A stretch of 64,000 nt of DNA, from the NCBI RefSeq assembly GCF_025716945.1, contig NZ_JAOVZT010000003.1, positions 211,898 to 275,897 of the forward strand. The letters run 5' to 3'. Numbering within the stretch: the first letter of the stretch is position 1; each line of letters opens with the position of its first letter. Source of the stretch: Geodermatophilus sp. YIM 151500. GTDB taxonomy: Bacteria; Actinomycetota; Actinomycetes; Mycobacteriales; Geodermatophilaceae. The notes beneath the pieces were generated by a model. That model was not told where the DNA came from. It made no database searches and saw only the letters and a list, made by a program, of their open reading frames with translations. The position numbers were made by a program, and so were the translations under genes. Shown piece after piece: positions 1 to 15,238 of this stretch.

Positions 1-290
1 GTCCGCAGGCGGTTGGTCCGCGCGAAGTCGCGGTCGAAGTGACGCATGTCCAACGCTCCGATCGCGGTCAGCTGGTGCACGATCACGTCCGGCCGCGCCC
101 GCCCGACGGCCTCCGCGACCTGCTCGGGCTCGAGCGCGTCCGCGACCACCGGCACCGCACCCCACTCGCGGAGCATCGTCTGCTTGGACTCCCGGCGCGT
201 CATGGCGTGGACCTCGTGACCCGCCTCGACCAGACGCGGCACCAGCTGCCGTCCGATCGCTCCCGTCGCCCCGGCGACGAACACCCTCAT
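1..290 (-). CDS. NAD(P)-dependent epimerase/reductase, N-terminal part
   Basis: Only the first 96 codons are inside the window; the gene continues beyond position 1. The protein begins MRVFVAGATGAIGRQLVPRL, whose GATGAIG is the dinucleotide-binding glycine motif of NmrA-like and extended short-chain dehydrogenase/epimerase proteins. Further on, DVIVHQLTAIGALDMRHF resembles the strand after the fourth beta-alpha unit of atypical SDRs. The product should be a cytosolic NAD(P)-binding enzyme, but the substrate cannot be told from this fragment. ATG at 290 is chosen because the glycine motif follows within ten residues, as usual for the family. Confidence 0.8.
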   Translation of the reverse strand, partial: MRVFVAGATGAIGRQLVPRLVEAGHEVHAMTRRESKQTMLREWGAVPVVADALEPEQVAEAVGRARPDVIVHQLTAIGALDMRHFDRDFARTNRLR

Positions 291-648
291 GATCACTCCT
301 CGGTCGAGGACTGCTGACACCAGACAAGACAAGAGAGCAGACCCCGCTGTGACACCTCCGGTGCCCCTGCACGGACGACGGGCGCAGGGTGGCGGTGCTG
401 CGACCCGTTGGCACGCGGTCCGCGACGCGCACGTCCGCGTGCCGGTGTGCCGGTTCCGCGTGCGTCCAACCGCCGGGCTGACCCCAGCTGCTGTGGCTGG
501 CGGGCGCGGTCCTGGTCGAGGCCCAGGACGACGGGCGGGCCACCGACCACCGCTACCCCACCGACGGCTCCATGGCCCTCGGGTGGGCCCCCCACCTGCG
601 GTGGAGGGCCCAACCGTGGGGTTGTCGGGCCGACCGCAGCGGAGAGCC
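291..648. other. Intergenic stretch without a gene
   Basis: This stretch separates the start of the epimerase gene from the end of the haloperoxidase gene, both on the minus strand. Open frames here show no recognisable protein. It should hold the epimerase promoter near 291-350. The only clear structure is the GC-rich hairpin at 585-611, listed separately. Confidence 0.5.
585..611 (-). terminator. Hairpin downstream of the haloperoxidase-like gene
   Basis: GGGCCCCCCACC and GGTGGAGGGCCC form a 12-bp stem with one mismatch and a three-base loop, 38 bp beyond the stop codon of the minus-strand gene. There is no U-tract, which is common for high-GC actinobacterial terminators. Function is inferred from position and stem strength. 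Confidence 0.45.
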
Positions 649-1932
649 TCAGTCAGCCCGGCCGAACCGGTCGTGGACCGCATCGGCCACCTGGCGGCCG
701 ATGCGCAGCCCGTCGTCCATCGCATCCCGGAAATGGAACCCGAGCCAGATGCGGGCGTCCGTGACGTCGTCCAGCCACGCCCGCTCCGAGGAGTACGTGC
801 GGGTCGTGACGACCACCCCGGGCGCAGTGGACTCCAGAGTCACCTCCACTCGTCCGAACAGCTCCTCCAGCACGTGAGCAGTGCTCCCGGTGAGGCAGGC
901 ATGACCACTCGGGTACTCCGGATACGGAGGAGTCGGGCCGAAGGGCGTCCAGGCGGCATCGACGACGGTGGCAGGGTTGCCGTCGGCGTCGGCCTGGTGG
1001 ATCGCCGTCTCCGGACGCCAGTAGTAGTGGACGTACTTCTCGCGCCAGCAGGTGATCAGCGCGTCGGCGCCGGCGCCGTTGACCGCCGCGAACATGCGCG
1101 CCGCGTCCACGATGTCGAGGTCCCGCCGCAGGGCGAGGTCGCGCATCGCGTCCTGATACTGACGCACCGGGTTGTCGCTGAAGAACAGCGCCAGATCCGT
1201 CTGCTCGGGCGACCGGCGGGAGCCCGTCGCCGCGCCCATCGTCCGGACCTCCTCGACGTCCGCGGCGTACTGGTCGCTCCTCAGGGAATCCGGGCCGTTC
1301 CGGTCGAACTGCCTGGGCGACCGGATGAGCACCGGTCGGGTGAACGCCAGCCACGGGGCCAGGAACTCGCCGCTGGCCGTCGGCGCCCACATGCCCGGCG
1401 GCGGATCGAGAGGCCGCGGCGGCGTGACCGGTGCGTCCCGGCCGTCATCGACACGCGACACGAGGAGGGCCTCCGCCGCGTCGTGCCCGACGCGCTGCCC
1501 CCGGACCCGCCCGTCATCGTCGGGGATGCCGGCCAGCCAGGCGTCGTAATCGGCGTCGAGCGCCGCCTCGGACGCGGGGAAGTACCGCACCAGGACGTCG
1601 TGCGCGGCGGTCGCCGCGGCGACGTCGGACGACGCGGGGCCGTGCGCAGCCGGCTGGCGGAGCGTCGGCCTCCCCCCTCCCTCGACCGTCACGACCGCGT
1701 TGTAGACAGCCGTGGACACCAGGGCCAGGTAGAGCTGCGCGACCGGTGGCGGCTTCTTCCCCTCGGCGCTGATGGTGCGGAAGGCGATGGCGTTCCAGGA
1801 CGTGACGATGCCGGCTGCGCTGCCGGCCCGGGACGACGCGGGCTGGGCCGCCGTCACCGAAACGGTGCTGAGCAGCACGGCGAGTGCAGCGACGACGCTG
1901 CCCCGGCGGACGGACGTGGGTGCTCGGGCCAT
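649..1932 (-). CDS. Secreted vanadium-dependent haloperoxidase / PAP2-like protein
   Basis: The 427-residue product has a cleavable-looking N-terminus: MARAPTSVRRGSV, a hydrophobic core of Ala, Leu and Val, then a polar Ala/Ser-rich stretch. The C-terminal half carries the active-site pattern shared by vanadium haloperoxidases and acid phosphatases of the PAP2 superfamily: K-x6-RP (KYVHYYWRP, near residue 296), PSGH (near 340) and R-x4-GFHF (near 392-398). These residues bind vanadate or phosphate. The enzyme would act outside the membrane, either oxidising halides with peroxide or removing phosphate; sequence alone does not separate the two. ATG at 1932 follows AGGAGAG. It is divergent from the ATPase gene at 2098. 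Confidence 0.8.
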   Translation of the reverse strand: MARAPTSVRRGSVVAALAVLLSTVSVTAAQPASSRAGSAAGIVTSWNAIAFRTISAEGKKPPPVAQLYLALVSTAVYNAVVTVEGGGRPTLRQPAAHGPASSDVAAATAAHDVLVRYFPASEAALDADYDAWLAGIPDDDGRVRGQRVGHDAAEALLVSRVDDGRDAPVTPPRPLDPPPGMWAPTASGEFLAPWLAFTRPVLIRSPRQFDRNGPDSLRSDQYAADVEEVRTMGAATGSRRSPEQTDLALFFSDNPVRQYQDAMRDLALRRDLDIVDAARMFAAVNGAGADALITCWREKYVHYYWRPETAIHQADADGNPATVVDAAWTPFGPTPPYPEYPSGHACLTGSTAHVLEELFGRVEVTLESTAPGVVVTTRTYSSERAWLDDVTDARIWLGFHFRDAMDDGLRIGRQVADAVHDRFGRAD

Positions 1933-2097
1933 GGTGTCTCTCCTGTCTGTCCGGCGCTCCCTGCGTGCGTGTGCGGTCTGCGTGACGTAGGCGCTGGGAT
2001 CGGCCCAGCGATCGCTGGGAACGGGGCAGCACGTGCGCTGGCCCCCGCGAGGCAGGTCCTGTCCGGCCCTCCCGCTTCCCGGCAGAATCCGGAGGTG

Positions 2098-5000
2098 GTG
2101 TTCGTCGGCCGGGCTCGCGCCCTGTCGCGGCTGCTCGCGGCCGCCGAGGACGCTGCGGCGGGGTGGGCGCAGCTCGTCCTCGTCAGCGGCGAGGCCGGGA
2201 TGGGCAAGACCGCGCTGGTGGGAGTCGCAGCCGCGCGCAGCGGGCTGGCCGTCGGCTGGGGCACCGGCGTCGAGGCGGGACGGACGCCGGCGTTCTGGCC
2301 GTGGAGCTCCGCGCTGCGCGGGGTGCTCGGCACCGTGGACGCCGCCGAGGCCACCGAGCTGACGCGGACCGTCGCCCCCGAGCTGGCCCGGATGCTCCCC
2401 GAACTCGCCGTGGAGGACGCGGTCACCGACGTCGACGGTCTGCTGGACACCGACGCCGCGCGGCTGCGGCTGTTCGACTGCGTCGCGCGGTTCGTGGAAC
2501 GGCTGGCCCGGCGGCGTCCGCTGATGCTCGTCCTCGACGACCTGCAGTGGGCCGACGAGTCGTCGCTCCGGCTGCTCGAGTACGTCACACGCTGCCCGCG
2601 GCCGGTGTCGCTGGTGGTCGTGGGTGCCTACCGGCACGACGAGCTGACCGCTGACACCGAGCGCGCACTGGCCGACGTCGCCGTCCGCGGCGAGCTGGTG
2701 CACCTGCACGGTCTGTCGTCCGACGAGGTGTTCGCCCTGATGGCCGGCACCGTGGGCCAGGACGCGGCCGCGCGGTGGGCGGTCGAGGTGCACCGACGCA
2801 CCGACGGCCATCCGTTCCTGACCCGCTACCTCGCCGAACTCCTGGCCGACCCCGCCGGGGCCACGAGTTCGGCGCCAGCCGCGGCGCACGACCTCGCCGC
2901 CCGTCGCGTGGAGCGGCTCACCCCCGCCTGCCGTGAGCTCGTGCACGCCGCCGCCGTGGCGGGCAACGAGCTCAGGCCCGACGTGCTCGCCGAGGTGTGC
3001 GCCGTCGGTCCACCCCGTGCGGTGGAGCTGATCGCGGAAGGGGTTCGTGCCGGCGTCCTGGTGACGAGCCCGGACGGCGGGCGGACGCTGCTGGCGCACG
3101 ACCTCGTCCGCGAGGCGCTCTACCTGCGCCTGCCCGTCCACCGACGGTTGGCGCTGCACCAGGCCATCGCCCGCGCGCTCGAGCACCGTCACGAACGCGG
3201 CAGCGCCGTCGAGCCCGCGGACCTGGCCCTGCACTGCGCCGCGGCGGTGCCGCTCGACGGTGCCGACCGGGCGATCCGCTGGGCCAGGTCCGCCGCGGCC
3301 GCGGAGCGGACCCGGCTCGCGTTCGCCGAGGCTGCGGCGCACCTCGCCCGGGCCCGCCGCGCGGTCGAGGACTCCGCGGTGGTCGACGCCGGCGGTGCGC
3401 TGATCGATCTGCTGGTCGAGGAAGCCGATGCCCGTGCCCGGGGTGGTGATCCCACCGCAGCGCGCGCTCTGCTCGACGACGCCGCCCGTCGGGCCACGAA
3501 CCTCGGCGACGCCCAGCGTTCGGGGCGGGTCGCCCTCGGGGTGCAGCAGCTCGGCAGCCGGTTCTCCATGCCGCACGACGTCGTCGCCGAGCTGCTCGAA
3601 ACCGCCCGGACGGCGCTGGACGGCACCGGCACCCTCATGGAGGCGCAGGTCACCGCCGGCCTGGCCCGAGAGCTCACCCACTCCCTCCCCCGGGACCGGG
3701 CCCGCTCGAAACCGCCCGGACGGCGCTGGACGGCACCGGCACCCTCATGGAGGCGCAGGTCACCGCCGGCCTGGCCCGAGAGCTCACCCACTCCCTCCCC
3801 CGGGACCGGGCCCGGGCGCGGCCGCTGTCGGAGCGAGCCCTGGTGTTGGCCCGGGGGCACGAAGACGACGCCACGCTCGCCGCCTGCCTCCTCGCCCGCC
3901 ACGACGTGCTGTGGACTCCGGGCCGCGCTCACGAGCGGATCGAGGTCGCCGCCGAGATCGTCGCGCTGGCGCGGCGCACGGCGAACAGGGAACGGGAGGC
4001 CGAGGGCCTGCTCCTGCTGACCACGGCTCAGCTCGAGGACGGGTCCCCGGCGTACCGGGCGACCGTGACGCAGTACCTCGCGCTCGCCGAGGGCTTCGGC
4101 CAGCCACGCCACGACTACATGGCGCTGACCCGACGCGCGGCGCTCGCGCTCATCGACGGTCGCCTCGACGAGGCGGAGGACCTGATCGACCGCTCGAGCG
4201 AACTCGGGGAGCAGATCTCCGAGCCCGACACCGTCAACGTGCGGACCGGGCAGCGTCTGGCGCTCGCATGGGCGCGCGGCGAGCCGAAGCTCCTCCGGGC
4301 CGTGGCCGAGGAGGCGGTCCGCTGCTGGGTCGGGGTTCCCCTGCACGCGCACGCCGTCGCTGCCGGGTTGCTGGCGCTGGCTGGCGAGCACGACGACATC
4401 GAGGCCGCTCGGCGGGCCCTGGACACGGTCCTCGCGACGGACAGCTGGCGGGAGGACCGGTCCTACCTGTGGTCGTTGTTCATGGGTGGGATGGCGACCG
4501 CCGCCGTCCGCCTGGGTGATGCGGCACTGTGCGGGCAACTGCTCGACGACCTGCGACCGTTCACCGCCACCGCCGGCATCGGCGGATCGCTGGTCTGCTA
4601 CATGGGCAGCAACGCGCTGTGGGCCGGCATGCTCGCCGACGCACTGGGCCGGACCGAGGAAGCCCGCCGGTGGCTGGAGGGATCTCTGGCCGTCCACCGC
4701 CGGGTCGGCGCTGCTGCCTGGGAGGCCGAGAGCCATCTCCGGCTCGCCGCGCTCGGTGCTCCTGGCGAGCACGCCGAGGCCGCCGCTCGGCTGGCCGGCG
4801 AGCTGGGCCTGCACGGGGTCGTCGGCCGGCTGTCGGCCGTGGCCGACGGCGAGCGGGTGACCGTGGCAGCGCGACCGGTTGCAGAGCTGTGCCGGGACGG
4901 CGAGATGTGGCGGGTCCGCTTCGGCTCGGCGTCGGCCCACCTTCGCGACGCCAAGGGGCTGGCCGACCTGCACACGTTGCTCACCCGTCCCGGACGGGAC

Positions 5001-5405
5001 GTCCACGTGCTCGAACTGGTGGGCGCCGGGCACGTCGAACGGGACACCGGGACGCTGCTCGACGGCGCCGCACGCGCTGCCTACCGCCACCGCCTGGAGG
5101 AGCTCGACTCCGATCTGGCCGCCGCGCGCGACGACGGCGACCTCGGCCGGCTCCAGCGGCTCGACCACGAGCGGGCTGCGCTCCTCGTCGAGCTGCGCAG
5201 GGCGACCGGCCTGGCGGGGCGCGCGCGGTCGCTGGGTTCCGGCACCGCCGAGCGAGCGCGGAAGACGGTGACCTCCCGGCTGCGGGAGGCGATCCACCGG
5301 ATCGACACGGTGATCCCCGAGCTGGGGACCCACCTGGACCGCTCCGTGATCACGGGTACCACGTGCCGGTACGAACCGACGGCCGGCGTGGAGTGGCGGC
5401 TCTAG
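2098..5405 (+). pseudogene. Large AAA ATPase (LuxR/MalT-type regulator architecture), frameshifted by a 110-bp duplication
   Basis: The first part reads VFVGRARALSRLL, a Walker A loop (GEAGMGKTAL) and a Walker B strand (LMLVLDDLQWADESS), the N-terminal ATPase layout of large signal-transduction ATPases. Alpha-helical repeats of TPR type follow. At 3594-3814 an exact 110-bp tandem duplication shifts the frame: reading from the start continues only to a stop near 4020, while the downstream part is open in another frame to 5405. Removing one copy joins the halves smoothly (LPRDRAR then ARPLSERAL) into a protein of about 1,066 residues. The C-terminal 180 residues lack a LuxR helix-turn-helix; they contain an LRDAKGLADLHTLL motif and a charged helical tail. 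The start is uncertain, because the GTG codons at 2095 and 2098 both have poorly spaced GGAGG. Confidence 0.8.
3594..3814. repeat. Exact 110-bp tandem duplication
   Basis: Copy one (3595-3704) and copy two (3705-3814) are identical base for base and directly adjacent; one further G matches on the left. Because 110 is not a multiple of three, the second copy breaks the ATPase reading frame. Perfect identity implies a very recent event or an assembly or sequencing artefact. Confidence 0.95.
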
Positions 5406-14341: not shown

Positions 14342-15238
14342 TCAGTGGGCAGGAGTGGGCAGGACCTCCTCCGCGACGGCCAGCACGGCGTCGCGGGCGG
14401 CCGAGCCGCGGCGCGGCGACCACCCGATCCCGTGGTTCATCGTCACGTCGGTCCCCGTGAGGGGCACGTAGCGGGACCCGGGTGGCAGGACGTGAGCGAT
14501 GCCCTCGGTCATCAGCGCGATGCCGACCCCGGCGGCCACCAGCATCAGGATCATGTAGGGGTCGGTGATCTCCTGGACGACGTGGGGGCGGAAGCCGGCG
14601 TCGACGCAGGCTCGCATCGCCGACTCCTGCAGCGCCGACCCCGCGGTGAGCGGCGTCGTGATGAAGTCCTGGTCGGCCAGCTCGACGATGTCGACGCTGG
14701 GCCGCTCCGCGAGCGGGTGGTCGGTGGGCAGCACCACCCCGAAGGTCTCGAGCGCGATCAGACGCGTGGAGATGAGGGCCGAGTCCACCGGCAGGCCGAT
14801 GAAGGCCACATCGAGGCGGCCGGAGTCGAGCTGCTCGACGGCGTCGCGGGTCATGACCCGCCCGACCAGGTCCAGGGCGATGTCGGGGAAGCGCTCGCGG
14901 ACCGCGCGGGTGAGCGGCGGGAGCGAGAGGTGGTTGAGGACCCCGCTGAAGCCGATCCCGACCCGCCCGTAGACGCCGCCCACCGACGCGAGCGTGGCCC
15001 TGCGCGCCGTCTCGACCTCCTCCATCACCACCCGGGCGTGGGGCAGCAACGCCTGCCCGGCGGCCGTCAGGGACACCGACCGCGTGCTCCGCTCGAACAG
15101 CGGTGTCCCCAGGTCCCTCTCGAGCTTGCGGATGGTCTGGCTCAGCGGTGACTGGGCCATCTGCAGTCGGGCCGCGGCGCGGCCGAAGTGCAGCTCCTCC
15201 GCGACGGCGATGAAGGCCTGGATCCACCGGATCTCCAC
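14342..15238 (-). CDS. LysR-family transcriptional regulator
   Basis: The 298-residue protein starts VEIRWIQAFIAVAEELHFGR and continues with the LysR winged helix-turn-helix (AAARLQMAQSPLSQTIRKLE). A periplasmic-binding-protein-like effector domain follows (residues about 90-295). GTG at 15238 is preferred over the upstream ATG at 15271 because GAGGGAG sits at correct distance before it and the start then aligns with typical LysR N-termini. The gene is divergent from the SDR gene and precedes the transporter operon on the same strand, so it likely controls one or both in response to a pathway intermediate. Confidence 0.88.
   Translation of the reverse strand: MEIRWIQAFIAVAEELHFGRAAARLQMAQSPLSQTIRKLERDLGTPLFERSTRSVSLTAAGQALLPHARVVMEEVETARRATLASVGGVYGRVGIGFSGVLNHLSLPPLTRAVRERFPDIALDLVGRVMTRDAVEQLDSGRLDVAFIGLPVDSALISTRLIALETFGVVLPTDHPLAERPSVDIVELADQDFITTPLTAGSALQESAMRACVDAGFRPHVVQEITDPYMILMLVAAGVGIALMTEGIAHVLPPGSRYVPLTGTDVTMNHGIGWSPRRGSAARDAVLAVAEEVLPTPAH

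Follow-up and report, generated by a model that had tools for sequence, protein, structure and literature searches.

The window analyzed here is a 64,000-nucleotide stretch of the genome of Geodermatophilus sp. YIM 151500 (G000:C33:211898-275897), taken from a 4.77-Mb assembly of 53 contigs that is 99.82% complete. Near its left end lies a gene encoding a large AAA ATPase (2095-5405), which is interrupted by two identical, adjacent copies of a 110-base unit and changes reading frame at the border between them. The window contained nothing recognized by Rfam and no tRNA found by ARAGORN. The features of the locus are as follows.

2095..4020, plus strand: upstream-frame open reading frame of 641 aa; start GTG at 2095 or 2098, stop at 4018-4020
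about 2101-2622, plus strand: AAA_16 ATPase domain (Pfam), inside the upstream open reading frame
3594..3703, plus strand: copy 1 of the 110-base unit, in the upstream frame (direct reading, TRF, lag scan and codon-position G+C)
3704..3813, plus strand: copy 2 of the 110-base unit, identical, with the coding pattern of the downstream frame; base 3814 matches too
3705..5405, plus strand: downstream-frame remainder, 566 residues from 3705; stop at 5403-5405
4839..5402, plus strand: C-terminal domain, conserved across the 22 sequences aligned; predicted winged helix into which a long helical hairpin is inserted

The exact 110-bp tandem duplication claimed by an earlier sequence-only reading was confirmed in three ways. 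Direct reading and an equality comparison gave identical adjacent units at 3594-3703 and 3704-3813; TRF reported 3594-3814 with a period of 110, 2.0 copies and 100% matches; and an exact lag scan found a 111-base run at lag 110 starting at 3594, which corresponds to a junction microhomology of one base. Chance cannot give an exact match of 111 bases. The same reading held that the duplication breaks the frame of a gene of about 1,066 residues and that removal of one copy restores it, and this proved correct: taking 110 bases from 2095-5405 leaves 1,066 codons and a stop. The frame shifts because 110 leaves a remainder of two when divided by three. The upstream open reading frame consists of 536 residues through the end of copy 1, followed by an out-of-frame tail, and neither frame meets a stop before its end. 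Read in the upstream frame, copy 1 encodes a 36-residue peptide, and copy 2, read in the downstream frame, encodes the identical one. Codon-position G+C (about 0.51-0.58 at position 2 and about 0.86-0.95 at position 3) fits the upstream frame as far as 3703; from 3704 it fits the downstream one. The earliest possible start in the downstream frame is an ATG at 3747, which lies within copy 2 and is not preceded by an evident ribosome-binding site. Apart from the duplication, the lag scan and frame analysis detected no lesion in either half of the gene and no divergence between the copies.

Identification of the product as an AAA ATPase is secure: Pfam AAA_16 (PF13191) matches in the upstream half (residues 18-191 of the translation P0001) with an E-value of 5.6e-25 and 89.2 bits against a gathering cut-off of 32.6. 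In the downstream half, TPR_12 is matched below the Pfam cut-off. The TOMM system kinase/cyclase fusion model TIGR03903 scores 85.5 bits, short of the NCBI cut-off of 705.75. The last 188 residues of the gene can be aligned with 21 other sequences. This C-terminal domain (window 4839-5402) of the AAA_16 ATPases is conserved yet has no Pfam model, none matching at E ≤ 0.1; the best hit in a sequence search of the PDB was an unrelated fusion protein at E 0.03, and Foldseek returned nothing at E ≤ 0.001. The AlphaFold2 model of the domain, with a pLDDT of 82.1 and a pTM of 0.58, combines three strands with helices and a C-terminal hairpin, and its central part is a long helical hairpin. The top VIA-align match was the DNA-binding domain of SaeR, with a Z of 9.0 and an rmsd of 2.5 over 87 residues, for a tool with which best Z values of 7-8 are common, and response-regulator winged helices occupied the leading rows. 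The predicted fold resembles the OmpR/PhoB winged helices, and on this model the term regulator, which the earlier reading had applied to the protein, is plausible; that designation draws its support from the predicted fold. Going by the modeled domain, the product is likely to be a regulatory ATPase whose output domain is a winged helix. The duplication cuts the ATPase off from the C-terminal putative winged-helix domain.

A profile search of genome contigs recovered at least 28 named homologous loci. Both halves of the gene are present in 26 of the 28 named loci among the matches listed, and in all 26 the stretch corresponding to the unit is single and the halves lie in one frame, overlapping on the subject by one unit length, give or take a codon or an omission in the local alignment. 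The two loci left out of this count are one whose contig begins within the gene (L115) and one represented by the downstream half only, in two frames (L138). The closest homolog among the matches listed is from Pseudonocardia autotrophica (L111), with 65% identity to the upstream half and 70% to the downstream half. The two best homologs from the same family, L071 (genome G079; 42% and 47% identity to the upstream and downstream halves) and L072 (genome G084; 39% and 43%), also carry the stretch once, with the halves in one frame. A repeat scan of the homologs, requiring a lag of at least 20 and a run of at least 24 and of 0.8 of the lag, found an exact repeat at the duplication site in none of the 28 named loci among the matches listed; one locus (L123) shows a pair of short repeats, at lags of 27 and 30, at other places in its frame. 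The earlier reading had named a two-copy structure common to the relatives as a refuting case, and the 26 judged loci together with L071 and L072 show that this case does not hold. A programmed frameshift or a conserved two-copy structure was rejected on the same count, the stretch occurring once and in one frame in 26/26 judged loci among the matches listed.

Some homologs are broken or cut short as well. Among the 26, the Pseudonocardia oceani locus (L116) has a single in-frame stop in the upstream half and another locus (L134) is truncated by a contig end; L071 has a single TGA in the downstream half. Broken copies of the gene thus arise by other routes too (L116, L071). The single-stop homologs suggest that some strains can do without the gene.

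The gene is patchily distributed in its own family. Among 112 family genomes, good coverage at both ends of the query is seen only for the two best matches (G079 and G084). A tree of the downstream half, with 32 rows and with L115, L134, L138 and L071 omitted, pairs the window gene with the Pseudonocardia autotrophica homolog with a support of 100/100 and places the same-family L072 elsewhere. Because of this pairing and the patchy presence in the family, the data suggest that the gene may have been acquired laterally. A mobile or viral origin was rejected: neither the initial genome-contig search nor a viral-contig search with the downstream half yielded a relative, and none of the three plasmid records that matched covered 80% of the query. 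A conserved neighborhood, as a hint at function, was likewise rejected: for three neighboring genes, 30 loci contained no counterpart at E ≤ 1e-8. At the left edge of the window, an open reading frame on the minus strand (3-839) matches L072 at 14560-14868.

The abundance of comparable repeats was assessed in 824,000 bases of the same genome, of which 8,103 were counted twice (about 816 kb, or about 17% of the genome). In the scanned portion, 12 distinct exact tandem repeats have a lag of at least 30 and a second copy that is whole; 11 of them have a lag divisible by three, and the 110-base repeat is the only one that does not. Only three have lags of at least 50 (54, 84 and 110). A control of 400,000 bases from another genome (G002) contained no exact direct repeat of at least 30 bases at lags of 30-3000, and no whole-copy exact tandem repeat with a lag of at least 50 occurred in 829,875 bases taken from other genomes, among them the G002 stretches. 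The feature is uncommon and is not alone in its kind. The surplus of repeats in this draft relative to the control may be a matter of biology or of assembly.

The 84-base repeat is one instance of a dispersed repeat that was matched 55 times in the genome. This element of about 85 bases, represented at L038:14872-15044 (G000:C33:74872-75044) and also in L073, L075, L079 and L035, is often tandem and often lies at N gaps. It was matched in 10 of the 13 family genomes searched (this one included) and in one of eight further genomes of the order; five loci holding such repeats had no Rfam match, and its RNA fold was no better than that of shuffles (z -0.01). A search of the window did not turn up its core. 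Another repeat, whose period is 46 bases, lies beside N gaps at L083:19740-19901 and L079:15160-15530.

The most plausible explanation, and probably the correct one, is that a rare illegitimate 110-bp tandem duplication occurred recently in this one strain and inactivated its AAA_16 ATPase gene. We infer that the duplication is real in the cells, that it is recent and inactivating, and that it came about by slippage or end joining. An illegitimate duplication of 110 bp with one base of microhomology could have formed by replication slippage or by end joining; since 110 is not divisible by three, it would have cut the ATPase half off from the C-terminal half, with its likely DNA-binding domain, and so inactivated the gene in the sequenced genome. 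A Ku gene is present in the genome (one match above the Pfam cut-off), and a microhomology of one base indicates no particular mechanism. DNA secondary structure as a cause of slippage was considered and gave no signal, the unit having no unusual structure (DNA fold z of 0.48, with 139/200 shuffles folding equally well). The undiverged copies and the lack of a further lesion would fit a young event, and the absence of differences in 110 bases limits its age only loosely. Tandem repeats generally lose one copy at a low rate, and by analogy the loss of one copy would be expected here at low frequency; re-formation at the same site after such a loss would be rare.

The chief competing explanation is that the cells hold one copy, and that the second was introduced when two contig ends sharing an overlap of about 110 bases were joined but not merged or when a gap was wrongly closed. 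The evidence for two copies is a single draft assembly, which is in 53 contigs and has 100-N gaps, and exact identity combined with a near-zero junction overlap is the expected trace of an unmerged overlap. Many exact direct repeats in this genome adjoin N gaps, and several gaps lie within repeat arrays. Against such an origin, the stretches read are free of N gaps for about 60 kb to each side of the duplication, and the roughly 816 kb scanned (about 17% of the genome) contains no other exact tandem repeat at a lag of about 110, arrays of other kinds aside. Because there is no second repeat of that lag, no recurrent length hints at an assembler k-mer. We regard an assembly artefact as a serious minority explanation, one that is unlikely but carries appreciable weight.

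The sequence-only reading had also proposed that identical duplications of this type can act as reversible phase switches, since the extra copy can be removed by slippage or recombination. Under a switch, the duplication would be formed and lost often enough to toggle the regulator in a population. There are precedents for behavior of this type. In pneumococcal capsule genes, spontaneous tandem duplication within an open reading frame abolishes function and is reversible, as recounted in PMC4022640 and PMC4243769 (citing Waite et al. 2001, 2003). The Geodermatophilus locus resembles these genes in having a frame-breaking tandem duplication within an open reading frame, of a kind with which function is lost in the pneumococcus and whose extra copy can there be lost again. 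However, the pneumococcal case was observed through its phenotype, which reverted in culture, whereas here there is one genome sequence, a gene of another kind and one state. In the account of Staphylococcus aureus sigH given in PMC3486894, short-junction duplications form at frequencies of up to 1e-5, and overnight between 1e-2 and 1e-3 of the cells lose activity as the locus returns to single copy. That system is likewise a short-junction tandem duplication at a regulator locus, but its units are much longer (1,210 and 1,888 bp), its junctions are of 7-8 bases and the duplication creates an active fusion gene, whereas the unit here is 110 bp, the junction is one base and the gene is broken.

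Several observations argue against a switch at the Geodermatophilus locus. A single state is seen, as one consensus sequence from one genome. Among the features by which phase-variable loci are recognized, a frame-breaking exact tandem repeat is present within the gene, but the corresponding site is not repeat-prone in the homologs (0/28 named loci among the matches listed). With a microhomology of one base, the duplication should rarely form again at the same place. The stop in L116 and the TGA in L071 are more readily explained by plain decay than by a switch that has been preserved. It is therefore highly improbable, in our estimation, that this soil-type actinobacterium has a contingency switch here, in which loss and re-formation of the 110-base copy would toggle between an intact AAA ATPase regulator and one severed from its putative DNA-binding domain, and the earlier proposal gained no support beyond a bare possibility. 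The locus would be better described as a mutation capable of reverting, for which a role as a switch is conceivable. Least probable of all, to the point that we give it hardly any credence, is a productive split into two functional proteins, an ATPase half and a C-terminal-domain half starting from ATG 3747: both halves are open and this in-frame ATG lies within copy 2, but it has no evident ribosome-binding site, the upstream frame ends about 270 bases beyond it, making simple stop-start coupling unlikely, and the homologs retain one chain.

Within the group of actinobacterial AAA_16 ATPases that have a large C-terminal part, the Pseudonocardia autotrophica protein, the closest among the matches listed, is similar over its whole length to the product of the window gene. 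The two genes differ in that the Pseudonocardia gene is an uninterrupted single frame containing the unit once, whereas the Geodermatophilus gene contains the unit twice and its frame is broken. As a recent duplication in one strain, which remains our preferred explanation, the locus offers a clean example of a small out-of-frame duplication silencing a large gene. It also serves as a caution that a single draft genome cannot separate a mutation from a switch or an assembly error. To our knowledge no tandem-duplication switch of a regulator is known in this group, and a literature search aimed at the group, which was not exhaustive, returned no paper. If both states coexisted in one clone, the locus would represent a tandem-duplication switch of a regulator in an actinobacterial group.
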